NCBI GenBank assembly: GCA_030019215.1
Contig: JASEEZ010000015.1
Coordinates: 1-50,407 of the forward strand
Reading direction: 5' to 3'
DNA length: 50,407 nt
Source: Actinomycetota bacterium
Lineage (GTDB): Bacteria > Actinomycetota > Aquicultoria > Subteraquimicrobiales > UBA9087
In this document: positions 4,346 to 45,018 of the stretch, piece by piece
Layout of the letters: each line of letters starts with the position of its first letter
Numbering within the stretch: the first letter of the stretch is position 1
The notes under the pieces: generated by a model
Told to the model about the DNA's origin: nothing
What the model saw: the letters and a program-made list of their open reading frames with translations, nothing else
The model's database searches: none
Translations under genes and position numbers: made by a program

Positions 4346-4442
4346 CTAGTACCGTTACAACTTAATTAGCCTAATTGGTCTTACTCCGTTAGAAAAGTGA
4401 CCTTCTAACAAGGTTAGCTGAAAATAGTTGTAACGGCACTAG
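4346..4442. mobile_element. MITE-like element, copy A (97 bp)
   Basis: The ends are inverted: CTAGTACCGTTACAACT at 4346-4362 and AGTTGTAACGGCACTAG at 4426-4442, with one mismatch. The outer CTAG is present at both ends and fits a 4-bp target duplication. The interior has no coding capacity. It fills the gap between rnhB and yraN, and its end forms the TAG stop codon of rnhB. Related copies are at 37984, 40529 and 44949. Confidence 0.75.
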
Positions 4443-5131
4443 TTTTTCTTTCTTGTTCTCTCCACCACAGGGGCGAAGCATCTTCTATGAATTGGACACG
4501 GTCCATATTTCCTCAAGGCCTTGAGATGCTCTTGGGTTCCATAGCCCTTGTGCCGATCAAATCCATAATTCGGGTACTTCTCGTGCCAATCTCTCATTAG
4601 TCGGTCTCTCGTGACCTTGCTCACGATTGAGGCCGCCGCTATCGTGGCGCTCACTACATCCCCCTTTATTAACGCCAGGTGAGGTAAGTCAAGCTTGGGC
4701 AAGGGAAAGCCATCGGACAAAACATAATCCGGTCGCACAGGGAGTTGCTGGACGGCCTGTTCCAAAGCTTGGAGATTGGCCTTTTGAAGACCCAGGGAAT
4801 CGACTACCGCGGACTCTAATATCACCACGCTCCAGCCAGTAGCCAGAACGGTCACCAACTCATAAAGTTTCTCCCTAAGAAGTGGTGAGACTCTCTTGCA
4901 TTCCCTCAAGTTGGGAACGTAGACGCCCTTTGACGGTAAGATGACCGCTGCTGCCACTAAGGGACCGGCCAGAGCGCCTCTTCCAGATTCATCAACACCA
5001 GCAATAAGGAAAAATCCCTGTCTCCGAAGCTTGTTCTCAAAGGAGTTCATGCTCAAGAAATCCTCCACCATCTTTGGGGGAGGATCCGCAGATTGATCTT
5101 TTAACTCCAATGGAGCAGTCCTGTTCTCCAT
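4439..5131 (-). CDS. rnhB: Ribonuclease HII
   Basis: RNase HII cleaves the RNA strand of RNA/DNA hybrids and removes misincorporated ribonucleotides. The catalytic motif AGVDESGRGALAGPLVAAAV is at about residues 44-63 (Asp and Glu of the DEDD set), followed by SDGFPLP and IKGDVVSATIAAASIVSKVTRDR with the remaining acidic residues. The YPNYGFDRHKGYGTQEHLKAL and GPCPIHRRCF motifs are typical of the C-terminus. The start is uncertain: the first ATG (5131) has no clear ribosome-binding site, while an ATG at 5050 (MNSFENKL) has GGAGG 11 bases upstream and would give about 203 residues. The TAG stop codon lies in the end of the MITE-like element. It is 14 bases downstream of lepB. Confidence 0.93.
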   Translation of the reverse strand: MENRTAPLELKDQSADPPPKMVEDFLSMNSFENKLRRQGFFLIAGVDESGRGALAGPLVAAAVILPSKGVYVPNLRECKRVSPLLREKLYELVTVLATGWSVVILESAVVDSLGLQKANLQALEQAVQQLPVRPDYVLSDGFPLPKLDLPHLALIKGDVVSATIAAASIVSKVTRDRLMRDWHEKYPNYGFDRHKGYGTQEHLKALRKYGPCPIHRRCFAPVVERTRKKN

Positions 5132-5145
5132 GGCTTGTAGGTGAA

Positions 5146-5694
5146 TCAGCGAAGCAACTCAATCCGATTTGGGGGCCAATAAATCATAAAGGCCTTACCG
5201 ATTACGCTTTTCCTTGGAAGCGGGCCAAAAAAGCGGCTATCGTAACTGTTTGGTCTATTGTCACCCATCAGAAAGACATGATCTGAAGGGACCTTCACGG
5301 GGCCATAGTTGCTGAGATCACCCTGCTTCACATAGGGCTCGATGAGTTCCTTGCCATCGATGAAAACTCGGCCGCTCTTTATCTCAATGGTCTCTCCCTT
5401 CGTCGCGATGACCCGCTTGATAAAATCTTTGGAAGAATCGAAGGGGGAAATAAAGACCACAGTGTCCCCAGGCCTTGGGTCTTGAAAACGGTAGATAAAT
5501 TTGTTGACGAATATACGATCGCCCGTGTAGAGAGTGGGTTCCATGGATGGGGAGGGAATCCAGAACATCTGGACGATGAAGGTCTTGAGAAGCCAGGCCA
5601 GGATGAAGGCAGCAATGATTAAAAGGGGTATATCTCTCAAAAATGCCAGAAGAGAGCCGGTCAATTCCTCACGCTGTTTGCCTTGCCCCTCCAC
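5146..5694 (-). CDS. lepB: Signal peptidase I
   Basis: Type I signal peptidase cleaves signal peptides of exported proteins at the outer face of the membrane. The frame is open much further upstream, but that part overlaps rplS; I chose the GTG at 5694, preceded by GGCGGAG at six bases, which gives 182 residues, the usual Gram-positive size. One N-terminal membrane segment (about residues 20-38, IPLLIIAAFILAWLLKTF) is followed by the catalytic Ser in IPSPSMEPTLYTGDRIFVNKF and by the catalytic Lys region DFIKRVIATKGETI, then DHVFLMGDNRPNSYDSRFFG. It lies in the rplS-lepB-rnhB order seen in many Gram-positive genomes. Confidence 0.95.
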   Translation of the reverse strand: MEGQGKQREELTGSLLAFLRDIPLLIIAAFILAWLLKTFIVQMFWIPSPSMEPTLYTGDRIFVNKFIYRFQDPRPGDTVVFISPFDSSKDFIKRVIATKGETIEIKSGRVFIDGKELIEPYVKQGDLSNYGPVKVPSDHVFLMGDNRPNSYDSRFFGPLPRKSVIGKAFMIYWPPNRIELLR

Positions 5695-5743
5695 TATTTT
5701 CTCCGCCCTACCTTCTCTTTTTCTCGACGAACAAATACCAATC

Positions 5744-6100
5744 TTACTTGGTGCGTTCGGTACGCTTTTCTTTGACGTGTGCCTTTTTCCCAACCTTCTC
5801 CCGCAGATAATAAAGCTTTGACCGGCACACCTTGCCCTTTCTCTTAACGTCGATCTTGACAATCTGCGGGGAATGCAAAGGGAAAGTCTTCTCCACACCC
5901 ACGCCGAAAGAGATCTTCCTGGTGGTAAAAATCTCCCTTGCCCCACTTCCTCCCCGCTTTAACACGATTCCCTGAAACACTTGCACCCTTTCTCTACCGG
6001 CTTCCACCACTTTGAAGTGAACGCGCACGGTATCACCAACATGAAACTCGGGCAGATCATCGCGTATCTGCTGTTTTCCCACGATATCCACACTATGCAT
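5744..6100 (-). CDS. rplS: 50S ribosomal protein L19
   Basis: L19 sits at the interface of the two ribosomal subunits. The 118-residue protein matches the family over its length: [54 protein letters not shown] and [17 protein letters not shown], with a lysine-rich tail. A GGGGG-containing site precedes the ATG. An extended -10 sequence about 30 bases upstream suggests that it can start its own transcript, leading lepB, rnhB and yraN, in addition to readthrough from trmD. Confidence 0.97.
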
Positions 6101-6131
6101 AAGGCTCCCCCCTAACTAAAAACAAAAAAGA

Positions 6132-6137
6132 ATTATA
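6132..6137 (-). promoter_or_regulatory. Extended -10 promoter element before rplS
   Basis: On the minus strand the sequence reads ATGCTATAAT, an extended -10 (TGN-TATAAT), between trmD and rplS. No good -35 is seen, which is normal for extended -10 promoters. The expected transcript start is about 10 bases before the rplS leader. The same TGCTATAAT occurs before DUF1858 and before the TPP riboswitch. Confidence 0.5.
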
Positions 6138-6164
6138 GCATACACCTCTGGCAGGAGAAAGCAT

Positions 6165-6911
6165 TTACTGGTGTCTCTTCAATTCCTTGAGTGCCTTCTT
6201 TTCCTTCTCGCTCAAGGCCGTCTCCTGAAGAAGATCAGGACGTTTTAAAAGGGTTCTCTCCAGGGAAGCTCGCCTCCGCCACTTCGCAATCTCGGCATGA
6301 TTCCCGCCTAAAAGGACCTTCGGAACCGACCAGCCCCGGTATCTAGTGGGGCGAGTATACTGCGGGTACTCCAGCAAACCCCGCGTGAAGGTTTCCTCCG
6401 CCAAGGACTCTTCCGCACCCAGTACCCCGTGGATCAGACGCGTTACGGCATCAACGAGAACCATGGCGGGTAGCTCCCCACCGCTGAGAACGTAATCACC
6501 CACAGATATCTCATCGGTCGCCAGATGCTCTCGAACTCTCTCATCAACCCCCTCGTACCTCCCACATAGGAGAATTAAATGCTTCTCTTGCGAAAACTCC
6601 TCCACCAATCTTTGATTCAGAGTATGGCCTTGGGGAGTAAACAGGATCACCCGCGCAATCTTTCTGACCTCCTCGAAGCCACGCCCAGCAACTTTCTCCA
6701 CCGCCTCAAAGAAGGGCTCGGGTTTCATCACCATCCCCGCTCCACCGCCATAGGGAAGATCGTCGACCTGGCGATGTTTATTGTGGGTAAAATCTCTCAA
6801 ATCGTGAACGCCTATTTCAACCAGGCCCTTTTCCTGAGCAACTCTTATCATTCCCTCCGCAAAAGGACTTGCAAACATCTTGGGGAAAATTGTAATTATG
6901 TCAATCTTCAT
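6165..6911 (-). CDS. trmD: tRNA (guanine-N1-)-methyltransferase TrmD
   Basis: TrmD methylates G37 of tRNAs that read CNN/UGG codons and prevents frameshifting. I chose the ATG at 6911 ([13 protein letters not shown]), which has GGAAG eight bases before it; the GTG at 6920 lies too close to that site. The deep-knot SPOUT core is evident: [37 protein letters not shown] and [19 protein letters not shown], followed by the C-terminal helical domain with PQYTRP and [20 protein letters not shown]. Length (248) is typical. It follows rimM by 22 bases in the classical rpsP-rimM-trmD-rplS order. Confidence 0.97.
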
Positions 6912-6933
6912 GACAGTCACTTCCAGTATTTAA

Positions 6934-7455
6934 TCACTCCAGCAATCCTGGAATGACCTCAATCACCATCCTACCAGCTTTAAGATCGATCTCCTCGACC
7001 ACTTCCTTGATGGCTGGGATCAATATCTCCTTGCCTCTCCCCGGGGGCTTAACCACGTAGACATCGTTGGCTCCAGTCCTTAAGATCTCAACTACTCTCC
7101 CCAGCGATCTTCCTTCCGTGGTGACAACCTCCAATCCAACTATTTGGTGAAACCAATAAGAGTTCTTCGGCAAAGGTTCTGCCTCTTCGATGGGGATCTC
7201 AAGCAGGTGGCCCCTTAGCTTCTCAGCCTCACCGCGGTCATTTATCTCCTTAAACTTGAGGTTTATCTTATCGCCGTGGGATTTGGCGCCTTCTATGGTT
7301 AGCCGTCGTACGTGAAGAAGAGGTGGGCAAAGAACAAAAGTAGTCCCTGGTTTAAACCGGGCGGGAAAGTCCGTAAGGCTACTGACCCGAACCTCACCCC
7401 ACATACCGTGCGGACAAAGGATTTTAGCCACCGTCAAGCGTTTTGGTTCTCTCAT
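6934..7455 (-). CDS. rimM: Ribosome maturation factor RimM
   Basis: RimM helps assemble the 30S head around S19. The 173-residue protein has the N-terminal barrel beginning LTVAKILCPHGMWGEVRVSSLTD with the family's G-x-x-G-E-V pattern, and the C-terminal PRC barrel (YWFHQIVGLEVVTTEGRSLG, NDVYVVKPPGRGKEILIPAI). It sits between the KH-domain gene and trmD, as in most Gram-positive genomes. Confidence 0.95.
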   Translation of the reverse strand: MREPKRLTVAKILCPHGMWGEVRVSSLTDFPARFKPGTTFVLCPPLLHVRRLTIEGAKSHGDKINLKFKEINDRGEAEKLRGHLLEIPIEEAEPLPKNSYWFHQIVGLEVVTTEGRSLGRVVEILRTGANDVYVVKPPGRGKEILIPAIKEVVEEIDLKAGRMVIEVIPGLLE

Positions 7456-7501
7456 CTGCCTTTTTATTGGATCAGCCGTTAATCAAAGAGAAGAGGGATT
7501 C

Positions 7502-7732
7502 TCAATCCATTATTTCAACAAGGGCGCTCTTGCCCTCCTTGGCAGCGGCAGCCTTTACAACCGTCCTCAACGCTCTAGCAATCCTTCCCTCTTTCCCAAT
7601 AACCTTTCCTATGTCGTCGGGAGCCACGTAGAGCTGTAAGATCACCGATTTTTCTCCCTCTACGATATCCACTTTTACCTCTTCCGGCTTGTCCACCAGA
7701 GCTCGAGCAAGAACTTCCAACAACTCCTTCAC
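7502..7732 (-). CDS. khpA: KH-domain RNA-binding protein KhpA (YlqC family)
   Basis: Small single-KH protein that in Gram-positive bacteria pairs with KhpB and binds many RNAs. The 76 residues include the GxxG loop in DDIGKVIGKEGRIARALR (about residues 39-56), the core of a type II KH fold. The start is GTG, with GGGGGTG upstream. Its place between rpsP and rimM is the conserved one. Only one KH domain is present; the KhpB partner is not in the window. Confidence 0.93.
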   Translation of the reverse strand: MKELLEVLARALVDKPEEVKVDIVEGEKSVILQLYVAPDDIGKVIGKEGRIARALRTVVKAAAAKEGKSALVEIMD

Positions 7733-7749
7733 AATTTCACCCCCGCAGG

Positions 7750-8037
7750 TTACTTTCCCTTTTTCTCCTTGCTTCTCTTCTTCTCCTGAGGTTCCTCACG
7801 GACATTAGCAATCTTCAGTAGTTTTTCCACCGCTTCCGAAGGCTGTGCACCTTGAGACAGCCACTTTAGGGCTTTTTCCTTGTCTATCTCCACGGATGAG
7901 GGTTCGGTTCTAGGATCGTATTGACCGATTACCTCTATGAACCTTCCATCCCTGGGCATTCGGGAATCCGTCACTACTACCCTGTAAGAGGGCTTCTTCT
8001 TCGCACCGACCCTACTCAGCCTTATCCTAACCGCCAA
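7750..8037 (-). CDS. rpsP: 30S ribosomal protein S16
   Basis: S16 is an early-assembly small-subunit protein. The 95-residue product begins [20 protein letters not shown] and contains the characteristic [19 protein letters not shown]. The start is TTG, preceded by AAAGGAGGTGAAAGC, a nearly perfect ribosome-binding site. The tail is lysine/glutamate rich ([11 protein letters not shown]), a little longer than in E. coli. It is the first gene of the rpsP-khpA-rimM-trmD series after ffh. Confidence 0.97.
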
Positions 8038-8084
8038 GCTTTCACCTCCTTTCAGTAGACTCGCGAATCATATCATCTCGCTCT

Positions 8085-9419
8085 TTAGACAATGAAGGGG
8101 AACGGCCTTCTGCCCGGTTTCGGACGACTCAACTTCCCAAGTTGCTTCATCAGCTTCCTCGCCTGCTCAAACTGTTTCAGCAATTGATTTACCTCATGAG
8201 AGGTCGTCCCGCTCCCCCGGGCAATCCTTGAGCGACGACCACCATTAATTATGGTGGGGTCTCTTCTTTCCTCGGGTGTCATCGATTGGATGATCACCTC
8301 AAGACGCCCCAATTGCCCCTCATCAACCTGCAATTTTCCAACATTGGGCAGTCCCGGTATTCGAGGGAGCATTTCCATGATTTGAGAAGCGGGCCCCACT
8401 CGCCTGAATTGCCTCAACTGCTCCAGAAAATCCTCCAAATCGAAACTATCCTTTCTGATCTTCTCCTCCAGCGCCTGAGCTTTATCTGCCTCGATAGCCG
8501 TCTTCGCTTTCTCGATTAAGGTAAGAGCATCACCCATACCCAATATCCTGGAGGACATCCTATCGGGATGGAAGGGCTGAAGGTCATCGAGCTTCTCCCC
8601 TACGCTGGCGAGCTTTATCGGTCTACCGGTGACCGCCTTGATGGATAATGCGGCTCCCCCTCTGGCATCCCCATCGAGCTTGGTTAAGATCACTCCATCG
8701 AAATCCACTCGCTCCTTGAAAACGAGAGCCACATTGACCGCATCCTGCCCCGTCATCGCATCCACCACAAGAAGAACCTGGTGAGGGCGAACCTCCCTTT
8801 TCACCTCTTCAAGCTCGTTCATCATCTTCTCATCTATATGCAAGCGCCCAGCGGTATCGACCACGACCACATCGCAATTTTTGGGGACGGCTTCTCTGAT
8901 TCCCTGTTTGGCCAGAGCAAGCACGGACTTCCCCACCTTGGAGAAAACGGGTACGCCTATCTCCTCGCCTAAAATCTTTAACTGTTCAATGGCCGCCGGT
9001 CTGTAGATGTCCGCCGCCACCAGAAAAGGTCTCTTGCCTTGGTTCTTGAGATAGTGGGCCAATTTGGCGGTGGCGGTAGTCTTTCCAGAACCCTGAAGCC
9101 CAACTAGCATGATGATGGTGGGGGGCTTGGAGGCAAAAGCAAGTTTGCTTTGGCCGCTCCCCATGAGAGCCGCAAGCTCTTCATGAACGATCTTGATCAC
9201 TTGTTGACCTGGTGTAAGGCTTTTGAGGACCTCCTCTCCGACGGCCCTCTCCTTCACCTCAGCGATGAAGTCTTTTACCACCTTAAAATTGACATCCGCC
9301 TCTAAGAGAGCCAAGCGAACTTCCCGCAGAGCTTCCCCTACATCCTGCTCACTTAACCGCCCCCTGCCTCTCAGTTTAGTAAAGACATTTTGTAATCTCG
9401 TGGCGAGATTATCAAACAT
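8085..9419 (-). CDS. ffh: Signal recognition particle protein Ffh
   Basis: Ffh is the GTPase subunit of SRP, which brings nascent membrane proteins to FtsY. The N domain (residues 1-90) is followed by the G domain with G1 GLQGSGKTTATAKLA, DTAGRLHIDEKMMNELEE, TKLDGDARGGAALS and GEKLDDLQPFHPDRMSSRILG. The methionine-rich M domain (about 310-440) contains the RNA-binding helix-loop-helix RRSRIARGSGTTSHEVN. Length 444 is typical. GAGGGAAT precedes the ATG. A consensus-like promoter lies 40-70 bases upstream. The SRP RNA gene is not in this window as far as I can see. Confidence 0.97.
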   Translation of the reverse strand: MFDNLATRLQNVFTKLRGRGRLSEQDVGEALREVRLALLEADVNFKVVKDFIAEVKERAVGEEVLKSLTPGQQVIKIVHEELAALMGSGQSKLAFASKPPTIIMLVGLQGSGKTTATAKLAHYLKNQGKRPFLVAADIYRPAAIEQLKILGEEIGVPVFSKVGKSVLALAKQGIREAVPKNCDVVVVDTAGRLHIDEKMMNELEEVKREVRPHQVLLVVDAMTGQDAVNVALVFKERVDFDGVILTKLDGDARGGAALSIKAVTGRPIKLASVGEKLDDLQPFHPDRMSSRILGMGDALTLIEKAKTAIEADKAQALEEKIRKDSFDLEDFLEQLRQFRRVGPASQIMEMLPRIPGLPNVGKLQVDEGQLGRLEVIIQSMTPEERRDPTIINGGRRSRIARGSGTTSHEVNQLLKQFEQARKLMKQLGKLSRPKPGRRPFPFIV

Positions 9420-9457
9420 AGATTCCCTCGATTTCTCCCAGTCCGTTGACCATCAGC

Positions 9458-9486
9458 ATATTACAGAAGGCCACGTGTGGTGTCAA
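9458..9486 (-). promoter_or_regulatory. Sigma-70-type promoter before ffh
   Basis: On the minus strand TTGACA (9486-9481) and TAATAT (9463-9458) are separated by 17 bases, an almost consensus vegetative promoter. It lies between ftsY and ffh and would make ffh and the downstream rpsP group independent of the smc-ftsY transcript. Confidence 0.75.
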
Positions 9487-9526
9487 TCCTTCTGGGATTT
9501 TCGCTGCGGACTTAGCTCCCATCCAC

Positions 9527-10441
9527 TCAAGAAAGCAAAGCCTCGACGAAAGCTCGGGCATCAAACTCCTGCAAATCATCGAGTTTTTCCCCTACCCCAA
9601 TCAAGATGACAGGGATTTTCAGCTCATCCTCGATGGCGGCGATGATGCCCCCCTTGGCTGTCCCATCGAGCTTGGTCAAAACAACCCCATCCACCTCCAG
9701 GGCCTTACCGAATAATCTAGCCTGAGAGAGACCATTCTGCCCAGTCGTGGCATCGATCACCAAAAGAGTTTTAATTTCAGCCTCCGGCGCCTCTCGCATG
9801 ACTACTCTCTTGATCTTCTGAAGCTCCTCCATGAGATGAATATAGGTGTGGAGGCGTCCAGCGGTATCGATTAGGAGGACGTCAACGTCCCTGGCTTGAG
9901 CGGCGTGGATGGCATCGTAGACCACCGCCGCTGGGTCGGATCCTCTTCGGTGCTTGATCGTCGCAGCCCCCACCCTCTTCCCCCATATCTCCAACTGCTC
10001 GATGGCAGCGGCCCTATAAGTATCGGCGGCCGCTAGAAGGACATTCTTGCCTTCAATTTTCGCCCGATGAGCTATCTTGGCAATGGTGGTGGTCTTCCCG
10101 GTTCCGTTGACCCCCAGCATCAGAAATATGCCCAACTTACCTTCGGAAAAGAGGGGCTGTTTCTCGGTAGTGAGAATATCGACCAATTTCTCCTTGAGCC
10201 TGGGGAGAAGTTGGGCAGATTCTCGTATCTTTTGGGCCCTCGCCTCCTCGCGAAGCTTATCGAGAAGTTCCTGGGTCACCTGGATACCCACATCCGCCTC
10301 GATTAGAGCTTCTTCCAAGCCCTCCCAAAACCCTTCATCCAACACGGGGAAATGAGCAAGGAGAGGGGAAAGGTGACTCGACAAGCGCTCGCGACTCTTC
10401 TTTAGGCTTCCCTTGAGCTTCCCAAACCAACCTTTCCGCAC
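9527..10441 (-). CDS. ftsY: SRP receptor FtsY
   Basis: FtsY is the membrane-associated GTPase receptor of SRP. The 304-residue protein has a short N-terminal basic region (no long acidic A domain, as is usual in Gram-positives), the NG domain with G1 GVNGTGKTTTIAKIAHRAK, the DTYRAAAIEQLEIW box, DTAGRLHTYIHLMEELQKI, TKLDGTAKGG and the C-terminal GVGEKLDDLQEFDARAFVEALL. The GTG start overlaps the TAG stop of smc by one base (TAGTG), showing translational coupling. Confidence 0.97.
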   Translation of the reverse strand: MRKGWFGKLKGSLKKSRERLSSHLSPLLAHFPVLDEGFWEGLEEALIEADVGIQVTQELLDKLREEARAQKIRESAQLLPRLKEKLVDILTTEKQPLFSEGKLGIFLMLGVNGTGKTTTIAKIAHRAKIEGKNVLLAAADTYRAAAIEQLEIWGKRVGAATIKHRRGSDPAAVVYDAIHAAQARDVDVLLIDTAGRLHTYIHLMEELQKIKRVVMREAPEAEIKTLLVIDATTGQNGLSQARLFGKALEVDGVVLTKLDGTAKGGIIAAIEDELKIPVILIGVGEKLDDLQEFDARAFVEALLS

Positions 10442-13400
10442 TAAACCGCCCTCTGGTACTCAGTGAGTTTCTGGGAAAAGAGCTTGGATACCCCATCCAC
10501 CTGCATGCTGACCCCATAGAGAACATCAGCCATCTCAATGGTCCGCCTCTGATGAGAGATGATCAAAAATTGAGTGCCATCCCTCAACTTGTGCAGAAGG
10601 TCGATAAACCGCTGCAAATTTACATCATCCAGAGCCGCTTCAACTTCATCGAGTATGTAAAAGGGACTTGGGCGGGTATGATAGATGGCGAAAAGAAATG
10701 CCAGAGCAACCAGGGCGGTTTCCCCTCCCGAGAGAAGGGACAACCTCTGTAGTTTCTTTCCGCTGGGCTGAGCTTCGATTTCAATGCCCGATTCCAAAGG
10801 ATTGTCAGAGTCGCTTAAAATAAGGTTCGCTTGTCCACCCGGAAATAGATAGGAGAAGACGGATTGGAAATGCTGGTTGACCTCCTCAAAAACTAGAAGG
10901 AACCTGTCTTTGATCTTTTTATCTATGGCAACGATGACCTTCTTCAAAACCTTTTTGCTCTCTTGCAGATCATCAAGCTGACCTTCCAAAAAGCACTGTC
11001 TCTTTTCCAGCTCAGAATATTCATCAACGGCGATGGGGTTTATCGGCCCCAGGCTGACGATTTTGGATCGGAGCCTCTTTGCCTTCGCCTCACACCCCTC
11101 CCGCGAAAGATCCCCAGGATAGTTTTGTAGGGCTCTCTCCAAAGGCACATCGTATTCTTCAACTATTTTTTCCACCGCACCCGTAACCTTGAGTTCAAGT
11201 TGAGCCTTGTCCAATCCAATGGCGTGCAGTTCCTCCTGCTCACCCTCCCACTGTCTGGTCAGCGAACGGATCTCATCCTGAGCCTTTTTAAGCGAATCTC
11301 TGACCCCCTTAAAAAATGTTTCCTCGCCAGCAGCCAGATTCTGGAGCTTGATCGCCCACCACTCCACCCTCTCCAGAAGCTGAGCAAAGAGGGCATGAAC
11401 GGGTTGGATGCGCGCCCTTAGGCACTCCAGAGCAACAGCAATCTCGTGTTCCGAATTCAGTAGTCGCTTTATCTCTGCCAGCTCCCCCCGAACTACCATC
11501 GTTTGTTTCTTCTTATGGATTTCCCTTTCGTTCAAGGATGCCAACTTAATCTGGCATTCGGCAACCTCTTTGCCAACGAGAGCTGCTTCTTTAAAATCGA
11601 TCTCGCGTTTCTTGACCGCTTTTCCAATCTCCTCCTTCAGGCGATTGAGTTCCTCAATGGCTTCTGTGATCTCCCGCTGCGTATCCCCCATCGCCTTTTT
11701 ATCTTCAATCACCTTCCCGTTTAAATTTGCGATCTTCTCTTCTATAAGTCTTCTCTTGGTCTCGGTGTCGGCAAAATCGATCTTCAACCTGGCATTCTCG
11801 GCATTTAAATCTCTTTCTTCTGCTCTCCTCCTTTGAAGTTCGTCGAAAATCTCCTTCTCTGATTTCAAGAGCTCAGCAAGCTCCCCCTCCAGGTCTTTTC
11901 TCTCCTTCGTCAGTTTTTGAAGGGAGCTCTGCAGCATCTTCTCTTGTTTCTTGAGCATCTCCAATTCTCTCCTAGACGCCAATTCGCTAAAAGACTCCTC
12001 CCCTTCGCACCCGATACCAAGCTTTTTGCCCGTGAACACCTCTCCACTTAACGTCACCAGAGTACAGTTGGCTGATTCCTTGATGAGAAGGCCGTTCGAA
12101 ATCCCGGAATCCTCGACTATGTAAACTCCATTCAAAAGATACTCGATGACATCTTTAATACGGCGATCGCACTTGATCGCACTCGATGCCTTGATGAGGG
12201 AAGAAATATTCGGAGGAGTGGGCGCAACTATCTCCTTACTACCCTCTATGGGGAAGAAAAAGACCCAACCAACTTCCTCCTTTTTGGCCGCAGCAAGGGC
12301 TCGCTCGGCATTCTTGAGTGTTCTGGTGATTACACAAAACATGCTTGGACCAAGCGCCGCCTCGATGGCCTTCTCATATTTCTCCGGAACCTCTATGAGC
12401 TCGGCGACAGCTCCCACCACCCCTGGGGGTCTATTCTCGCTATTTAAAAGCCAGGCCACTCCCCTGGGAAATCCGGCAAGACTCTTCTTAGAGCTTTCCA
12501 GGACCCTTATCCGGGCACTGCACTCCGCAACCTGCCCCCCAATTTTACGCTCCCTTCTCTGAGCCGATTCTATCGCCTTAGAACGATCGTCCAACTTCTT
12601 TCGCGTCTGTTCAAGAGAGGTTTCTTCCTTTTTCAGCTCCTTCAATAACCCGGCTAACCTTTGTTCGTTTTCTCGAAGCGACCTTTCTACCTCTTTCAAT
12701 TTGGTTGTAAGAGCTTTTTCCTGCTCCTCCAGAAAAGCAATCTGATTTTCGGCGCTCACCACGGCGGATTTCAGGGTGCTCAAATTACCCTGGTTGAAAG
12801 CAAGCGACTCCTGTAGGGCTTGAGCCTTCCCCTCCAGAACCTCTAGCCCCTCATCGGCAGCTTTTCTCTTCTTCCCGGCAACCTCAGCTCGGCGACGAGC
12901 GTCAGTAAGTTCGGAGTAGAGGGCCTTCAACTGAGCATCCGCTACATCCCCCTCGTTCTTGAGTTCGGCCAGCTCCTCTTCCTTCCTTCGTTTGCCGGCT
13001 TCCAACTGGTGGGTCTTCTGACGAATCTCGCTGAGACGCTCGATCAGGTTTTTCCCTTTTTCCTCCAGGAGAAGGAGCCCGCTGTTAAACCGCTCCTGAA
13101 TACCCTGAAGGCGGCGGCGTTGTTCCCCCAGATCTCCTGCATAAAGTCCCCTCTCCTCCAACTGCACCTGGAAACCCTCGACCTCCTGCTCCTTCCTCAT
13201 GAGTTTCCGCTTCAACTCACCGATCCGAGATTCAAGTTCCGCTTCCTTGTCTTCCAGCGAGTTCCACTGGGCCTGCAGTTCTCTTAACTCCCTGACCGCC
13301 AGGTCTATTTCGAGTTCCCTGAGTTGGCTCTTGCAATCATTGAAAATCTTGGTGCGATCGGTCTGTTTTTTCAATGGGCGAAGCTGTCGATTAACCTCCC

Positions 13401-37983: not shown

Positions 37984-38017
37984 CTAGTGCCGTTACAACT
38001 ATTTCCTATGGTACTAG
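37984..38017. mobile_element. MITE-like element, copy B (34 bp, internally deleted)
   Basis: Begins CTAGTGCCGTTACAACT (37984-38000), continues ATTTCCTAT and ends GGTACTAG (38010-38017). One end is complete and only about four bases of the other end remain inside the CTAG duplication. The final CTAG supplies the TAG stop codon of thiM. Confidence 0.65.
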
Positions 38018-38826
38018 GCCATTTGAACCCTGCACCCGCTCAAGATATCCTGGGAACTAAGGTGGGCCAGGGAATTATACAGAGCGACGTGAAAGGTCCC
38101 GGGAAGACCACCCGACTCGCGAGCGGCAATCTCCCCAGCAAGGCCGAAAGCCACCAGTCCACCCACGGTGGCCAAAAAACGATCCTTTTGAACAGCCGCA
38201 AAGGCCCCAATAAGGGTAGTGGCCATACAGCCCGTGCCCGTGACCGTGCTCAACATCGGATCACCGTTGCCAACCAGCGCCACCCTTCTCCCATCGCTCA
38301 CCAAATCCTCCTTGCCGGTCACAGCCACCACGCAATCTCGTTTAAAGGCAAACTCCTTGACTATTTCGAGCATGTTGTCCAAACCACCAACGGATTCAAC
38401 CCCCTTTATTTGCCCACCGTAACCCGCCAGGATTGATATCTCGGCTGAATTTCCCCTGATCACATCGATCTTTAAAGACTTGATTAGGTAGCGGGCGCTC
38501 TCGGTACGCAAGGAGGTAGCCCCCACACCCACCGGGTCCAGGATGATGGGAATATTGAGCTCATTGGCCACTCTACCCGCCAGGGTCATGGATTCGATCA
38601 ACTCGGGCGTGAGAGTTCCAATATTGAGAATTAGGGCCCCCGCTGCCCGAACCATCTCCTCGACTTCCTCCTTGGCGTGAGCCATAACTGGAAGAGCACC
38701 GATACAGAGTGTGACGTTGGCGGTCTCATTCATCACCACAAAATTGGTGATGTGATGAAGAAGCGGCTTTAGCCTGCGTACCCCATCCAAGTCTTGGACA
38801 ATCAGCTGAGCGATGTCTTTCTTCAC
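38014..38826 (-). CDS. thiM: Hydroxyethylthiazole kinase ThiM
   Basis: ThiM phosphorylates hydroxyethylthiazole, a salvage step. The 270-residue protein has PLLHHITNFVVMNETANVTL, GALPVMAHAKEEVEEMV, PIILDPVGVGATSLRT, VIRGNSAEISILAGYGGQIK, GVESVGGL and VTGTGCMATTLIGAFAAV (with the catalytic Cys). The start is GTG after GAGGAGGTAAACGAC. It is the first gene after the TPP riboswitch. The salvage thiM first, and no thiG/thiH/thiS here, suggests that thiazole is obtained by uptake or from genes elsewhere. Confidence 0.95.
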   Translation of the reverse strand: MKKDIAQLIVQDLDGVRRLKPLLHHITNFVVMNETANVTLCIGALPVMAHAKEEVEEMVRAAGALILNIGTLTPELIESMTLAGRVANELNIPIILDPVGVGATSLRTESARYLIKSLKIDVIRGNSAEISILAGYGGQIKGVESVGGLDNMLEIVKEFAFKRDCVVAVTGKEDLVSDGRRVALVGNGDPMLSTVTGTGCMATTLIGAFAAVQKDRFLATVGGLVAFGLAGEIAARESGGLPGTFHVALYNSLAHLSSQDILSGCRVQMA

Positions 38827-38887: not shown

Positions 38888-38915
38888 CACAAGTTAATCT
38901 GCAAGCAAGCAGATA

Positions 38916-39044
38916 ATCTCATTATCCCTTCGCTGGCATTACCCAGCCCCCCGATGTCCATCGGGGGGGCCTCAACGGCTCAGGTTCAAACGGTCGACCA
39001 TACAGTCCTCTCAGCCTTGCCATCGGCGAGGCTCCCGTTGAGAT
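38916..39044 (-). promoter_or_regulatory. TPP riboswitch (THI element)
   Basis: The minus strand carries the core of the TPP aptamer: GGGAGCC, GGCTGAGAGG (CTGAGA at 39014-39009), TTGAACCTGA (38980-38987) and CTGGGTAATGCCAGCGAAGG (38931-38948 region), closed by P1 ATCTCA/TGAGAT (39044-39039 and 38921-38916). It lies upstream of thiM. Unusually, about 30 bases including a 10-bp-arm palindrome (38947-38968) stand between GAACCTGA and CTGGGTAATG, where most TPP aptamers have one or two bases. Confidence 0.93.
38947..38968. repeat. Palindromic element inside the TPP riboswitch
   Basis: CCCCCCGATG and CATCGGGGGG flank a central TC. Its core CCCGATGTCCATCGGG (38950-38965) is identical, in the same orientation, to the element in recG at 27843. 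It sits in the junction before aptamer helix P4/P5. Confidence 0.7.
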
Positions 39045-39060
39045 ATTCAATTTTAAAAGT

Positions 39061-39066
39061 ATTATA
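39061..39066 (-). promoter_or_regulatory. Extended -10 promoter of the thi operon
   Basis: Minus-strand CTGCTATAAT (extended -10) about 17 bases before the first base of aptamer stem P1. No clear -35. It would start the riboswitch leader at about 39054. Confidence 0.55.
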
Positions 39067-39144
39067 GCAGAACATAGAGCTACAATAAAATCAATCAACA
39101 AAGGAGTCCGTCCACAATTGCTAGAAAGTAATGATGATGTCTAG

Positions 39145-39154
39145 ATATAATGAA
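39145..39154 (+). promoter_or_regulatory. -10-like element before the hydrolase gene
   Basis: TAGATATAAT ends only a few bases before the ATG at 39160. There is no clear ribosome-binding site, so the hydrolase may be read from a leaderless or nearly leaderless mRNA. Confidence 0.35.
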
Positions 39155-39159
39155 ATGAA

Positions 39160-40140
39160 ATGCTAAAAAGACTCATCTTACCCTTCAAGAAATCCCTGAA
39201 AATAGTGCTGGTCACAGTGACGGTTGCGGTGCTTCTAGTGCTGGTGGGAGCCACCACTTACAGCTATCTAATCTTTCCGAACTACATCGGCAAAACACCC
39301 CCGCCACCTCCCTCAATCCCGACAGGAACCAGCGTCGAAGTCGCTGGAAGAAAGATTCACTACATCAAGGAGGGTGAAGGGAAGCCCCTCATCCTAATCC
39401 ACGGCTTCGGTGGCTCTACCTTTAGCTGGCGTCACAACATCAATCCCCTATCGAAGACTTTCACCGTCTACACGCTTGATCTTCCCGGATTTGGTCTCTC
39501 GGAGAAGTCAACTACGTTCAGATACTCGACCCTAGCCCACGCGGAACTGGTAAAAAATTTCATGAAAGCGCTGAGAATCGATAAGGCGACCCTAGTCGGG
39601 CATTCCATGGGGGGCGAAGTGGCCATAATCGTTGCTCTTCAATACCCAGAAAAGGTGGAAAAGCTGATTCTCATAGACAGCCCGATCGAACAGAGCTACC
39701 CACACCCCTTAATGAGACTGCTAGCCAGCCCTCCATTGGGCAAAGTGCTCGTAAGAAGCATCCTCTTCAACGCAAAATCAGTTGAATTCGCCCTCAAGAG
39801 GTCCTATTACGACAACAAACTCGTCACCAAAGAGGTTATCACGGGCTACTTTTACCCCATGAGGACCAAGGGAGCCGATGAAGCCTTTCTGGCCATGAGC
39901 AGAAGTTACATCATCACCGAAGTAAAAGACGGCCTCCAATACCTTTACCTCCCCGCCCTCATAATATGGGGAGAGAAAGACAGACTGGTTCTGGTGGACC
40001 GGGGACACTTCCTGCACGGGCAGATCAGAAAATCCAAACTCATTATCATCCCCGAATGTGGTCACTCGCCAATGGAGGAGAAACCGGCGAGGATTAATGA
40101 CTTAATCGAACGATTCGCCACAGGAAAAACACTTGAATAA
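39160..40140 (+). CDS. Membrane-anchored alpha/beta hydrolase
   Basis: The 326-residue protein has an uncleaved-looking N-terminal membrane anchor (about residues 14-37, IVLVTVTVAVLLVLVGATTY) and an alpha/beta hydrolase domain placed outside the cytoplasm. Catalytic pieces: oxyanion HGFGGSTFSW, nucleophile in LVGHSMGGEVAIIVAL, acid Asp in IIWGEKDRLVLV and His in IPECGHSPMEEKP. Substrate is unknown; esterase/lipase or haloperoxidase-like are possible. It is the first gene on the plus strand after the divergent thi operon and converges with the cupin gene (16 bases between stops). Confidence 0.88.
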   Translation: MLKRLILPFKKSLKIVLVTVTVAVLLVLVGATTYSYLIFPNYIGKTPPPPPSIPTGTSVEVAGRKIHYIKEGEGKPLILIHGFGGSTFSWRHNINPLSKTFTVYTLDLPGFGLSEKSTTFRYSTLAHAELVKNFMKALRIDKATLVGHSMGGEVAIIVALQYPEKVEKLILIDSPIEQSYPHPLMRLLASPPLGKVLVRSILFNAKSVEFALKRSYYDNKLVTKEVITGYFYPMRTKGADEAFLAMSRSYIITEVKDGLQYLYLPALIIWGEKDRLVLVDRGHFLHGQIRKSKLIIIPECGHSPMEEKPARINDLIERFATGKTLE

Positions 40141-40156
40141 AGTTTTTCTTAATTTC

Positions 40157-40495
40157 CTATTTGATGGGCACGAGACAGATAAATTGCAAACACCCCGCCG
40201 ATGGCGGGGTGTTTGCAATCTGATGCTCCTCGTTAGCGGGGACAAAAATGACATCACCGACGCTTAAAGGGATCTCGCCATCTTTTCCCACCGCCGCTCC
40301 CTTGCCCTCGAGAATGAAGATCTCATGTTCCCAATCGTGGGCGTGATAGGGGGTTGCGCATCCGGCCTCGACCTCAAATACCCGCATCGCAAAATTGGGA
40401 GCCCCGTCCCCTTCACCTATCACCCAGCGCACGGTGACCCCCGGCGTGCCCTCGACGGGCTCGCTTTTGACCTCTCGATAGTTACAAATCTTCAT
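40157..40495 (-). CDS. Cupin domain protein
   Basis: Single-domain cupin of 112 residues. I chose the ATG at 40495 (MKICNYREVKSEPVEG), with GGAGGGGGG upstream. Metal-binding cupin motif 1 is [20 protein letters not shown] (two His, one Glu) and motif 2 is VGDVIFVPANEEHQIANTP. The role (dioxygenase, isomerase or sensor) cannot be told. The last part of the gene (40183-40219) contains a perfect 17-bp inverted repeat with a three-base loop, encoding IANTPPSAGCLQ; homologues usually have a NTGDEPLRF-type sequence here, so this end looks locally remodelled. Confidence 0.87.
   Translation of the reverse strand: MKICNYREVKSEPVEGTPGVTVRWVIGEGDGAPNFAMRVFEVEAGCATPYHAHDWEHEIFILEGKGAAVGKDGEIPLSVGDVIFVPANEEHQIANTPPSAGCLQFICLVPIK
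40183..40219. repeat. Perfect 17-bp hairpin at the cupin gene end
   Basis: ATTGCAAACACCCCGCC and GGCGGGGTGTTTGCAAT with GAT as loop. It lies inside the cupin coding region near its stop and between two converging genes. No U-run follows on either strand, so a normal intrinsic terminator is unlikely. Confidence 0.8.
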
Positions 40496-40528
40496 CGTCG
40501 TCCCCCCTCCACAGACCACCCAATAATT

Positions 40529-40560
40529 CTAGTGCCGTTACAACTTTAAAATAGAACATT
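40529..40560. mobile_element. MITE-like element, copy C (one end only)
   Basis: CTAGTGCCGTTACAACT at 40529-40545, then TTAAAATAGAACATT, which matches the inner side of one end of copy D (CTAAGATAGAACATT). No second end is found nearby. It lies just upstream of the cupin gene. Confidence 0.6.
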
Positions 40561-40588
40561 TTGTCGATTAAAAGAAGTGATATACACT

Positions 40589-40632
40589 TTTGAAGAAGAA
40601 TTTGATACCCTTTGAAAAGAAATTTGGTACCC
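40589..40632 (+). repeat. Two 22-bp imperfect direct repeats before the CvpA gene
   Basis: Units at 40589-40610 and 40611-40632, 18 of 22 bases identical (TTTGAAGAAGAATTTGATAC and TTTGAAAAGAAATTTGGTAC, each followed by CC). Placed about 50-95 bases before the ATG of the next gene; may be a regulator-binding site or a slippage product. Confidence 0.45.
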
Positions 40633-40683
40633 TAACGGGTATTCGCAACTCCTTCAAGATCAGACAAGGATGGGTTTAAGGAG

Positions 40684-41556
40684 ATGAACTGGGTAGATCC
40701 GATAATTATCCTTTTGGTCCTTTTGGCCACCCTGAATGGAACGGCGATTGGACTTGTCGGTGGAATCTTCGAAATTTTAAGCCTAGTTGCCGGACTGATC
40801 GTGGCCTCAAAATACTACTCCCCCTGGGGAAACTTACTGGCCAACCTACTTCCCATCCCGAAAGACATCGCCAACATCCTCGGTTTCGGTCTCCTGTTTC
40901 TCTTAATCCGTGAGTTGATCTTGAGCTTCGGTGGCCTGATTAAACTGCCCACCCGGAATCGGCTGGTGAGGTTGGTCAACGGCGTCGGTGGGGGCCTGGT
41001 GGGTCTCTTCGCGGGAGTAGTCGTCACCGGTCTGATCTTGGTGCTCCTGACCGCCTTTCCTCTAAACGCTGGCCTCACAGCTCAGATCAGACAATCCCAT
41101 CTGGGCCCAAAATTGATCGACGCTATGACGGAACTCTACGTTAAAACCGAGGCGGCTCTGCCCCTAGAGGTTCCCAAACTCGCCTTCTACCCCGAAAAGC
41201 TGGCAACAAAGGGCGATTTACGGGCGATAGATTTTAGCACCCTGGATGGAGCAACCTGCATCGCCTGTGAAGGAAAGGTCAAATTCCTCGGGTACTTCAG
41301 AAATAAGTACGGTTCTGCCTCACCCAAGTTCGTCTGCACCAAATGTGGTCGAGTAAGCGATGGCTGCCAAACCTTTGAGGGTCACCATCTGATGTATGGG
41401 CAGTGCCCCGCAGTCCTCGGACGCCAGGGCTACAGATTTGATTGTGGAGTATGGACGAATGGAAATTTTGCAAAACCAGTGGGCACATGCCCGGTGTGTG
41501 GGGAAAGGGCTCTCGAGGTCATACCGATGGAAGTAGCTATTCTAGGGGTAAATTAA
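40684..41556 (+). CDS. CvpA-like membrane protein with cysteine-rich C-terminal domain
   Basis: The 290-residue protein joins two parts. Residues 1-125 form about four membrane helices of the CvpA/colicin V production type (MNWVDPIIILLVLLATLNGT, GLVGGIFEILSLVAGLIVAS, VNGVGGGLVGLFAGVVV). Residues about 185-275 are a soluble domain with nine cysteines: CIAC (192/195), CTKC (218/221), C228, C241, C254 and CPVC (269/272), with HH at 234-235. This looks like two or more zinc ribbons or a metal centre. I do not know this fusion from described families. TTAAGGAG directly precedes the ATG. Its TAA stop overlaps the TAA of the converging M23 gene (shared TTAA). Confidence 0.8.
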   Translation: MNWVDPIIILLVLLATLNGTAIGLVGGIFEILSLVAGLIVASKYYSPWGNLLANLLPIPKDIANILGFGLLFLLIRELILSFGGLIKLPTRNRLVRLVNGVGGGLVGLFAGVVVTGLILVLLTAFPLNAGLTAQIRQSHLGPKLIDAMTELYVKTEAALPLEVPKLAFYPEKLATKGDLRAIDFSTLDGATCIACEGKVKFLGYFRNKYGSASPKFVCTKCGRVSDGCQTFEGHHLMYGQCPAVLGRQGYRFDCGVWTNGNFAKPVGTCPVCGERALEVIPMEVAILGVN

Positions 41557-42620
41557 CGGGCGGCCTGCAGGATGGGATAAGGATTGACTGCACTTCCACC
41601 GTTAGGATGAACCTCAAAGTGAAGATGACAAGATCCCCCGCGAGCGTTGCCCGTATTGCCAACGTAGCCAATGACATCTCCCTTGTTTACACGGCCTCCG
41701 GTCACGGCATAACCAGAAAGATGCATGTAGGCATACTTGTGCCCATCATCCCCATAGAGATAGATCGTCTTTCCTCCAAGACGGCTGTAACTGGTTCCGA
41801 TGGTACCGCTCATACAAGCAATACAGGGGGTGCCCCTCAAAGCGAATACGTCACAACCCTGGTGGCGCCGCCCTCCACTGCGGGGAGCCAACCAACTGTT
41901 GGTGAAAGCATTGGGTCCCAAAACGGGAAAGGCAAAACCCGCTATACTGTAACGGGCAGAGGAATAGGAGACACTCTTCCGCCTCGCCCTGCGCTCCATC
42001 TCGATCAGCTGACCCTCTTTTGTGGAGAGCAATGATTTCAGCTGGCGCAACTTTTTATCGAGATCATCCCGCTTGGACTTGAGCACATTTAGCTGAGCTT
42101 TCTCTCTTTCGCGCTGTTGAGCTAGTTCCTCTCTTCTCCGCTCAACCTCGGCTTTTATCTCCCTTACTTTCTCAAGAGTCTCGGCATCCTCCTCGCTTAT
42201 CCTCTTCAGTAGATCGAGGCGGGTCATGAACCCTCTAAAATTCTCGGCGCCAAAAAGGACTTCAATAAAATCGATGTCCCCATTCCGATAGATGACATTG
42301 ACCCGGTCATTGAGGATCTTTTGAGCGATCTGCAGCTCCTGCTCTACCTCATCCAAACGTGCTTGGGTGGATCGCATTTCGCCCTCGACCTTGACCAGGT
42401 TCACCCAGGCAGTATTGTACCCTTGAGCAAGCTGGATGAGATTCTTATCTAAATCGCTGATTTGGCGCCGGATGCTGGTTATCTCCCCTTTCTTTTTCGA
42501 GACGGAAGATGCACCAGCTAAAGAGGGAAAAATGAGAGAAAACACTAGGAGGGTCGCCGTTATTAACACCCATATCTTCTTCTTTGGAAGAAGTACATTC
42601 CCAAAACCCTGAATTTTCAC
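41553..42620 (-). CDS. Secreted coiled-coil M23 family peptidase
   Basis: Envelope endopeptidase of the M23 (LytM/lysostaphin) family, which cuts peptidoglycan cross-bridges. An N-terminal hydrophobic signal (IWVLITATLLVFSLIFPSLA) is followed by a long coiled coil (about residues 45-200 of the frame) of the PcsB/EnvC type, and the M23 domain with HQGCDVFALRGTPCIACMSG (His and Asp), YAYMHLSGYAVTGGRVNKGD, VIGYVGNTGNARGG and the HLHFEVHPNGG metal motif. All metal ligands are present, so it should be active. The start is unclear: GTG at 42620 has GGAGG very close; a TTG at 42656 lacks a site. Confidence 0.9.
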   Translation of the reverse strand: MKIQGFGNVLLPKKKIWVLITATLLVFSLIFPSLAGASSVSKKKGEITSIRRQISDLDKNLIQLAQGYNTAWVNLVKVEGEMRSTQARLDEVEQELQIAQKILNDRVNVIYRNGDIDFIEVLFGAENFRGFMTRLDLLKRISEEDAETLEKVREIKAEVERRREELAQQREREKAQLNVLKSKRDDLDKKLRQLKSLLSTKEGQLIEMERRARRKSVSYSSARYSIAGFAFPVLGPNAFTNSWLAPRSGGRRHQGCDVFALRGTPCIACMSGTIGTSYSRLGGKTIYLYGDDGHKYAYMHLSGYAVTGGRVNKGDVIGYVGNTGNARGGSCHLHFEVHPNGGSAVNPYPILQAAR

Positions 42621-42690
42621 CGCCTCCAGAGAAGCTAAATCAAATTCTTGCGACAAAGAGACCGCTCACATACTTATATTTAATAACATA

Positions 42691-42716
42691 AAAAAAAATC
42701 GGGGGCAAACCGAAAT
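42691..42716 (-). terminator. Possible terminator after the unknown gene
   Basis: The minus strand reads TCGG, a seven-base loop, CCGA and eight T. The stem is short, so efficiency is doubtful. It lies between the unknown gene at 42803 and the M23 gene. Confidence 0.35.
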
Positions 42717-42802
42717 CACCAATAAAACTCCTGCTCAGAGTAGTACGCATCAACTAAACGGCAGGTCAAGATGAAATTTTTTCAGCAAGCTCAAACTACA
42801 AA

Positions 42803-43264
42803 CTATATATCTCCCCTCTCAACATCCTCCAGAAAAACCCTTAAAATCTTGAGGATGTTCTCTATCGCCTTCTTTACATCCCCCGCATCCTCATGCCCGT
42901 TCCGAATCTTCTTGAATTTTTCGTCCAGGTTCGGGGAAAACTTTCCCCCCACCACAGGCGGGGCCTCCCCATAGAACACTCTGGAATCGGGGTGAAGATT
43001 CAGAGTAATTCCCCAGGTACTAACATGCCCCCACATCACGGGCATAGCGAGTCTTCCCATGCTCTCTGCAAATCCCCCCAGGGCCTCCTCTCTGTTTTTG
43101 CAGGGAGGAAGTGAACTGCTCTTCCCGGTCATCTTGTTTGTAACCACCATTCGCCACTCTCGAGATTCCCCCTCGGCTTTCTCCTCCAGAGGACAAACAT
43201 CAAGAGAAACCAGGAAACATCTGTCAGAGTCGAGAACCAACTCCGCTTCCACCAGAGAACTCAT
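42803..43264 (-). CDS. Protein of unknown function
   Basis: A 153-residue soluble protein starting MSSLVEAELVLDSDRCFLVS, with a very good ribosome-binding site (AAGGAGGAGATGAG). I recognise no domain. Visible points: a beta-rich first half with VVTNKMTGKSSSLPPC, a central MPVMWGHVSTWGITLNLHPD stretch, and a helical C-terminal end with many Lys and Glu. No signal peptide or membrane segment. It lies 17 bases downstream of the DJ-1 lipoprotein gene and upstream of the M23 gene, so it is probably cotranscribed with the first. Confidence 0.75.
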   Translation of the reverse strand: MSSLVEAELVLDSDRCFLVSLDVCPLEEKAEGESREWRMVVTNKMTGKSSSLPPCKNREEALGGFAESMGRLAMPVMWGHVSTWGITLNLHPDSRVFYGEAPPVVGGKFSPNLDEKFKKIRNGHEDAGDVKKAIENILKILRVFLEDVERGDI

Positions 43265-43281
43265 CTCATCTCCTCCTTCAC

Positions 43282-43947
43282 CTATTGCTGTTCACCGAGG
43301 GCTTGGACTATGGTCTGCGCAAAGGACACGGCCGCCTTGGGATCAGAAGCCGTTACTATATTGCCATCCCTCACCACGGGGGCATCAACATACTGAGCCC
43401 CCTTTTCAGTGATCTCCTGAATCCTGGACGACCAAACAGTCGCCTGCTTCCCCTCCAAGACCCCGGCATTGGCCAGAGTTACGGGAGCAATGCAAATGGC
43501 CGCCAGAACCTTATCGGAGTTCACCGCCCGCTGGGCGATGAAATGAGCGTTCTCATCATGCCAATACTCCACTGATCCCACGCCCCCCACAAAAATGATG
43601 GCATCGTAGTCCACCACATTGGCCTGTTCGAGAAGAAGATCCGGTTTAACCTCCAAACCCAGTGATCCTTTGGCCGGCTCAAGAGAGGATGAGGCCACTG
43701 TGACCTGCATTCCCTGTCCCTCAAAGATCCCGCGGGGCTCGGAGTACTCCTCGTCGCGGAAATCCTCATGAGCGATCACCATCAAAACCCGCTTGGGCGC
43801 GGGAGCGGCTGGGGTAGAGGCCGGTACGGTCTCCTCAACCACCTTCTCCTCGGGAACAGGCGCTACCTTCTTCTCTTTTTTCTGGCCCGCCTGGCACCCC
43901 GCGATGACCAAAACCACCGCAAATAAAATCAAGATCAACCGTTTCAT
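43282..43947 (-). CDS. DJ-1/PfpI family lipoprotein
   Basis: The 221-residue protein starts MKRLILILFAVVLVIAGCQA, a lipoprotein signal with the lipobox VIAGC; I chose this ATG at 43947 because of GAGGAGGGC upstream. After a Lys/Pro/Glu/Ala linker (about residues 21-52) comes a DJ-1/PfpI glutamine-amidotransferase-like domain: VLMVIAHEDFRDEEYSEP (conserved Glu), IIFVGGVGSVEYW and the nucleophile elbow LAAICIAPVTLANAGVL with Cys. It would sit on the outer face of the membrane. Deglycase, chaperone or protease functions have been proposed for the family; none can be chosen here. It follows the IMPase-like gene in the same direction. Confidence 0.88.
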   Translation of the reverse strand: MKRLILILFAVVLVIAGCQAGQKKEKKVAPVPEEKVVEETVPASTPAAPAPKRVLMVIAHEDFRDEEYSEPRGIFEGQGMQVTVASSSLEPAKGSLGLEVKPDLLLEQANVVDYDAIIFVGGVGSVEYWHDENAHFIAQRAVNSDKVLAAICIAPVTLANAGVLEGKQATVWSSRIQEITEKGAQYVDAPVVRDGNIVTASDPKAAVSFAQTIVQALGEQQ

Positions 43948-43980
43948 CGATGTTGCCCTCCTCAAATCCCAGTCGGTGGA

Positions 43981-44931
43981 TCAAGGTTTTTTGATGCCCC
44001 TGAGTCTCTCGATTCCGACATCGATCAGATGAAGAATTTTCTCATGCAAGCCGGGATTGACCGCCCCGACCACGGAAAATTGAAACTCCGGTCCCGATCC
44101 CAGAAGAGGATAGTCACCGATGGACCCACCACAGCCATCGGTCACCACGCAACCGAGCTCCTGAACGATGAGAACTGCCGCGGCCACATCGTAGGGGTTG
44201 TTGTTCAAAACGGTTCCCCGGCCAACCCGCTTGAACTCCTCTTCCACCCAGGGAACCTCATCGATCATGCGCTTTCCAATATCAATATAGGCATCCATCT
44301 GACCCATGATGAGGCGGGTCATGGAAAAAGTGGCGCTACCAACATCGAAAACTCCGCCATCGACCGAGGAGATGTCGATGAGCTCACCTAAAACCGCAAC
44401 CAATGCCTGGGCCGGTCTGCCCCTAAACCCAATGCACCAGAAGAGGGTACTTAAGTCCGTGTTACTGCTCAGGATCGGTTTTATCTCTTGCCCGTCTCTT
44501 TCAATTCTTACGCCCTTCCCCTTCTCGACCAAGAAGATGGTGTCGTTTTTAATCTCCTGGATACAGCCGAGAAAGACGTCCTTCATTCGAGGTTGCTCAC
44601 CATATCTTGCGGCTGCCACCGAGACGCAGCAGGACTCGAGACCAGCCGCCGCGGGACGAGTGCCATCGATAGGGTCGATGACCAGCACAAACTGGGGCTC
44701 TCCAAAAACCACAAGGCCCTTATCCTCAGAGTAGTAGGCGATGTCACCTTGAGCTTTCAGGAAAGATTCCACCACTTCCTCAGCCAGCTCATCGATGACA
44801 AAGGTAGTATCCCCACCAACGGCCTTCCCCAGGGCCCGACGAGAGGCAATCTTGCCCAGATGAGGCTTGACCGTCTTCTGTATGGTCATTGTGAGGTCGT
44901 AGACTATCTCCTTGATGTCTCCTCTGCCCAT
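43981..44931 (-). CDS. Inositol monophosphatase/FBPase superfamily protein
   Basis: The 316-residue protein belongs to the Mg-dependent IMPase/FBPase superfamily. The metal motif is FVLVIDPIDGTRPAAAGLES, and upstream YYSEDKG gives the conserved Glu. The usual C-terminal WDxAAG is replaced by NPYDVAAAVLIVQELG, so the Asp is kept. VDGGVFDVGSATFSMTRLIM in the middle is unlike SuhB. Substrate could be an inositol or sugar phosphate, or PAP. AAGAAGGATTGATGT precedes the ATG. It stands between the GerMN gene (with a MITE in the gap) and the DJ-1 gene. Confidence 0.85.
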   Translation of the reverse strand: MGRGDIKEIVYDLTMTIQKTVKPHLGKIASRRALGKAVGGDTTFVIDELAEEVVESFLKAQGDIAYYSEDKGLVVFGEPQFVLVIDPIDGTRPAAAGLESCCVSVAAARYGEQPRMKDVFLGCIQEIKNDTIFLVEKGKGVRIERDGQEIKPILSSNTDLSTLFWCIGFRGRPAQALVAVLGELIDISSVDGGVFDVGSATFSMTRLIMGQMDAYIDIGKRMIDEVPWVEEEFKRVGRGTVLNNNPYDVAAAVLIVQELGCVVTDGCGGSIGDYPLLGSGPEFQFSVVGAVNPGLHEKILHLIDVGIERLRGIKKP

Positions 44932-44948
44932 ACATCAATCCTTCTTTA

Positions 44949-45018
44949 CCAGTGCCGTTACAACTATTTCTTATATTGCTTGTTTCAATGTTCTATCTTA
45001 GGGTTGTAACGGTACCAG
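44949..45018. mobile_element. MITE-like element, copy D (70 bp)
   Basis: CCAG then TGCCGTTACAAC at one end and GTTGTAACGGTA then CCAG at the other. The CCAG is a direct repeat, not an inverted one, and so is good evidence for a 4-bp target-site duplication. The end encodes the last six residues (LVPLQP) and the TAA stop of the GerMN gene. Confidence 0.8.

Follow-up and report, generated by a model that had tools for sequence, protein, structure and literature searches.

The closest precedent for the repeats described here is MITEPsy1 of Pseudomonas syringae, a non-coding element of 100 nt that is bounded by 18-nt ends (GGAAGGTCTGAAAAAGCC) and duplicates four nucleotides, CTAG or YTAA, at its target (PMC3189936). 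MITEPsy1 is reported to transpose in vivo, probably by means of the ISPsy2 transposase, and is listed by its authors as 'IS5?' (PMC3189936). The stretch of DNA analysed in this study (50,407 nucleotides, hereafter the window) belongs to a 1.63-Mb genome of the Actinomycetota (G000) and contains four loci, A to D, at which an initial annotation had noticed a MITE-like repeat family. All four copies are present, and they almost certainly represent a single genus-specific MITE family of non-coding elements, about 46-220 bp long, which carries 12-bp terminal inverted repeats (TRCCGTTACAAC), inserts into YTAR (mostly CTAG) with a duplication of 4 bp and would be moved in trans by a DDE-type transposase. 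The copies, their target duplications and the genes whose stop codons they touch are arranged as follows.

4346-4349, no strand: left target duplication of copy A, CTAG; the congener locus lacks the element and its target reads CTG
4350-4438, plus strand: copy A, an 89-bp F1 MITE (TACCGTTACAAC...GTTGTAACGGCA), absent at congener locus L178
4439-4442, no strand: right target duplication of copy A, CTAG, whose TAG serves as stop codon for RNase HII
4439-5131, minus strand: RNase HII gene (rnhB), ending on that TAG
37984-37987, no strand: left CTAG of copy B
37988-38013, plus strand: copy B, 26 bp, internally deleted, a full F2-type end (TGCCGTTACAACTATTTCCTAT) plus GGTA
38014-38017, no strand: right CTAG of copy B, whose TAG serves as stop codon for hydroxyethylthiazole kinase
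38014-38826, minus strand: hydroxyethylthiazole kinase gene, ending on that TAG
40529-40532, no strand: left CTAG of copy C
40533 to ~40584, plus strand: copy C, a truncated F2 element (short 71-bp form), its end placed by comparison with complete F2 copies
44949-44952, no strand: left target duplication of copy D, CCAG
44953-45014, minus strand: copy D, a 62-bp F2 element in inverse orientation to C, containing the TAA stop of the Germane-domain gene
44998-45657, minus strand: upstream Germane-domain gene, with its TAA stop (44998-45000) inside copy D
45015-45018, no strand: right target duplication of copy D, CCAG

Copy B retains only GGTA, the last four bases of the end, of its right terminal repeat, which is the stub that had already been recognised at 37984. 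Copy C is devoid of the right 19 bp and of the right duplication; its end, initially set at 40560, had to be shifted to about 40584 after comparison with complete F2 copies. The inner sequence that C and D were said to have in common is indeed found in both, as ATAGAACATT in C and as its reverse complement in D.

Copy A is situated between the genes for RNase HII and a UPF0102 (YraN) protein, copy B between those for thiamine phosphate synthase and hydroxyethylthiazole kinase, copy C between a cupin gene and a colicin-V-production-type gene, and copy D between an inositol-monophosphatase-type gene and the Germane-domain gene. Some insertions have changed the ends of genes, as exemplified by rnhB at copy A. 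Here, the rnhB and yraN frames (window 3990-5131) are parted by the element and RNase HII is terminated by the CTAG duplication, about 9 residues shorter; in the congener, G001, the RNase HII frame continues and overlaps the start of yraN. Avoidance of CTAG was considered as the cause of intergenic insertion and dropped, the tetranucleotide being hardly depleted in the window (80 observed versus 93 expected). Its density is 1.5 per kb in coding DNA and 2.4 per kb elsewhere.

The repeat occurs far above chance in both the window and the genome. Six exact matches to TRCCGTTACAAC are found in the window, and 12 with up to two mismatches, a number reached in none of 100 shuffles (mean 2.3). Genome-wide, 92 exact matches compare with 2 for the reversed control pattern, and 39 exact inverted pairs spanning 46 to 325 bp can be recognised, besides decayed and nested copies. 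One slightly altered end is displayed by, for example, the copies at C1:56452, C5:27453, C7:40239 and C22:61028, and further copies are truncated or nested. In total, the family amounts to about 50 copies dispersed over many contigs of G000, a count of elements with at least one end preserved, of which the four window loci are a sample. Terminal inverted repeats at both ends, short length, lack of a transposase and many dispersed copies characterize these elements as MITEs.

Behind the common ends lie unrelated interiors, which define three subfamilies. F1, which includes copy A, measures 88-89 bp; its nine aligned exact pairs have a mean identity of 0.90. F2, comprising copies B, C and D, occurs in a short form of 62-71 bp and in longer forms of about 115-223 bp, and F3 is about 150-170 bp long (3 copies aligned, identity 0.96). 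Members of the family have also inserted into each other. At C48:51646-51869 an F3 copy lies within an F2 copy with CTTG on either side, whereas uninterrupted F2 copies have one CTTG, and at C33:18750 an F2 copy lacking its right part is interrupted by an F1 copy. Inside the 325-bp copy (L066/L002, C2:11408-11732) lies one more inverted repeat, TTTACATGGGTCATAA ... TTATGACCCACATGTAA, which probably represents a further small element that entered this copy. Truncated MITE ends at C33:84917 and C49:57361, as well as an insertion sequence end at L168, are followed by similar DNA, AACNAGTNRGGTTTAC, which in two of these three cases continues into AAAACCGTGTCGNAGTCCCGCC, a repeated element.

A true duplication of 4 bp had been proposed, and a comparison of the flanks throughout the genome suggested. 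For this comparison, 37 un-nested exact pairs were used and two nested chimeras left out. The flanks are consistent: identity over 4 bp is observed in 27 of the 37 pairs and over 5 bp in none. As CTAG reads identically on both strands, information comes from the matched flanks that differ from it. There are six of them (TTAG twice, CCAG twice, CTAA and CTGG), a number not attained in any of 20,000 shuffles of the right flanks, in which the maximum was five. The four flank columns (C69/T5, T70/C4, A64/G7, G67/A7), beyond which there is no clear preference, describe a YTAR target with a strong preference for CTAG. Unequal 4-bp flanks are seen in the remaining 10 pairs. At one of these, C49:30143, the left flank reads CTCG in G000 and the empty site in G001 reads CTAG, so that the inequality probably stems from a later mutation.

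The congener G001, a UBA9087 MAG of the Actinomycetota, is the only sequenced congener; it is an incomplete draft, with flanks about 80-96% identical to those of G000. Joined flanks from G000 were searched in G001 and then aligned. Empty sites in relatives, for which the initial annotation had advised to look, are present: ten insertion sites of G000, including that of copy A, are unoccupied in G001, and at eight of them a single copy of the target is found.

C2:11408: single TTAG in G001
C3:44950: single CTAG in G001
C8:34561: single CTAG in G001
C15:17836: single CTAG in G001
C22:88002: single CTAG in G001
C49:30143: single CTAG in G001
C44:85378: single CTAA in G001
C52:1120: single CTGG in G001

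Among the four window copies, the comparison with G001 covers copy A. Since the target at the empty copy A site (L178) reads CTG instead of CTAG, this site is an imperfect proof of duplication. At C48:29668 the MITE is absent from G001 and other DNA follows. Conversely, where G001 carries the insertion L072, G000 has a single CTAG and no element, and the sites of the G001 insertions L096 and L097 are empty in G000 as well. Other insertions are shared by the two genomes, for instance the F3-in-F2 nesting at C48:51646, which corresponds to L085 in G001. Individual empty sites in G001 may be precise excisions; however, with insertions private to either genome, no interpretation other than transposition makes sense. 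The insertions private to each species thus indicate transposition in both lineages after their split. At one CTAG site (C5:6840-7008 in G000, L181 in G001) the MITE of G000 is matched in the congener by what is apparently the end of a different insertion sequence (...GATGTTATGCTATTTAACA).

Taken together, copy number, inverted pairs, duplications and empty sites bear out the view of the four loci as a MITE family; its movement, ends, target and 4-bp duplication can be read from the two genomes themselves.

Outside the genus the sequence family was found neither in a class-wide pattern search of 36 genomes, nor in 100 relatives, about 85,000 species genomes (searched with the short-element pattern) or viral contigs, and G001 is the only relative which carries it. 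A few other relatives have one exact match each, and an 18-mer matched twice in viral contigs, but these matches lack a partner end and seem fortuitous. An 81-bp stretch around an F2 copy gave no match in the plasmid collection.

An autonomous element with matching ends is expected of a MITE family, although it is often missing and does not strictly define the class; here, a full parent would read CTAG-TRCCGTTACAAC...GTTGTAACGGYA-CTAG. The initial annotation had already stated that the parent is not in the window, and no autonomous element bounded in this manner was seen in G000 or G001, both incomplete drafts in which some short contigs read as N. In profile searches, neither genome gave a match to PF13586, PF13546, PF13751 or PF13701, and G000 gave none to PF01609; the single PF01609 match, in G001, belongs to an IS1634-type fragment that lacks TRCCGTTACAAC ends. 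An IS1595-like transposase on contig C30, recognised by eye and not by model, likewise has no TRCCGTTACAAC ends in the stretch read. A collapsed multi-copy parent in G000 is unlikely: the contig ends that were read display other repeats, with no TRCCGTTACAAC at the breaks (several very short contigs reading as N). Contigs breaking at such repeats are L102, L146, L161, L162, L154 and L168; L112, L175, L176, L163, L124 and L117; L130 and L152; and L104 and L149. These multi-copy repeats end in ...GCTATTTATCA or similar, contain subterminal repeats like TAGCANNACATCGNTAAC and are followed by NYTAN (for example CCTAG, GTTAA, ACTAG). Apparently they belong to different insertion sequences whose target is similar, and they have no convincing plasmid match.

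Because no autonomous element with these ends was found in either genome, the class of the transposase is deduced indirectly. A DDE-type transposase, provided by an insertion sequence that was lost or is unsampled, would recognise the TRCCGTTACAAC ends in trans, excise the element and insert it where YTAR has been cut with a 4-bp stagger. Later internal or terminal deletion would account for shortened copies, B and C among them. The family is new, the type of element is already known, and an assignment to a superfamily is withheld.

A narrower form of this explanation, which derives the MITEs from an element of the IS5 group or the IS701 family, can be entertained tentatively and is rather unlikely. 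The CTAG/YTAR target in combination with the 4-bp duplication fits IS5 (PMC11677980), IS701 (4 bp, PMC2266710) and MITEPsy1 (PMC3189936), but the ends resemble neither those of MITEPsy1 nor the IS701 end consensus, and the transposase profiles are missing as described above. The suggestion of an IS5-group relationship in the initial annotation accordingly stands with regard to the YTAR target and falls with regard to the ends, which are unlike the GGAAGGT type, and to the lack of an IS5-type transposase in G000, so that it carries little weight. A further proposal, speculative and doubtful, regards the family as what is left of an insertion sequence group not yet described, which would have TRCCGTTACAAC ends, 4-bp YTAR targets and a transposase not of IS5, IS701, IS1182 or IS1380 type.

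IS630 duplicates 2 bp (TA), and a 2-bp duplication of this kind is excluded by the 4-bp duplications in the data. Very improbable, therefore, is an IS630/Tc1-type MITE that enters CTAG at its central TA and duplicates these two bases only, with the outer C and G belonging in part to the element and in part to the target. The deviating tetramers TTAG, CTAA, CCAG and CTGG are duplicated on both sides, the empty sites contain one copy of the same 4-mer, and the duplicated CCAG and CTGG contain no TA at all. A preference of IS630 for TA within CTAG is on record in PMC2170065 (citing Tenzen and Ohtsubo 1991), and an IS630-like transposase, identified by eye and not by model, is located beside CTAG on contig C35, but over the stretch read no TRCCGTTACAAC borders this gene. 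It is hardly credible that the copies are not transposons but conserved terminators or regulatory hairpins at the RNA level, placed where transcripts end. They do form hairpins (z about -4 to -5), and in the window they are intergenic and often at gene 3' ends, but hairpin formation is explained by the terminal inverted repeats, the window yields no Rfam match, several unrelated interiors lie behind identical ends, and the flanks are duplicated and the orthologous sites empty.

With the MITE family as the favoured explanation, a poorly known uncultured actinobacterial lineage acquires a well-documented example, in which occupied and empty alleles from two species render activity, target choice and decay directly readable. 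The element class itself is unsurprising, and the missing parent constitutes a concrete search target.

Members of the IS5 group share the 4-bp direct target repeat, e.g. CTAG or CTAA (PMC11677980), but encode a transposase, and the IS5-type profiles (PF01609, PF13586) are absent from G000. The IS701 family duplicates exactly four bp (PMC2266710), but its end consensus ---YACT-Y--YR is unmatched here and PF13546 occurs in neither genome. The MITEs of Haloquadratum walsbyi are archaeal and their ends match known transposons, in contrast to TRCCGTTACAAC, for which none is known (PMC3119063). QMITE1 and QMITE2 of Coxiella burnetii likewise reach about 50 copies per genome and possess terminal inverted and direct repeats (PMC5896051); however, they are larger (about 190-400 bp), their direct repeats vary (2-4 or 7-9 bp) and they have no CTAG target. 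MITEPsy1 differs in its 18-nt ends, which are unrelated to the 12-nt TRCCGTTACAAC, in its likely parent, which is known, and in its number of six copies in its host versus about 50 here, but corresponds to the present family in being non-coding and short, in its terminal inverted repeats and in the 4-nt CTAG/YTAA duplication.
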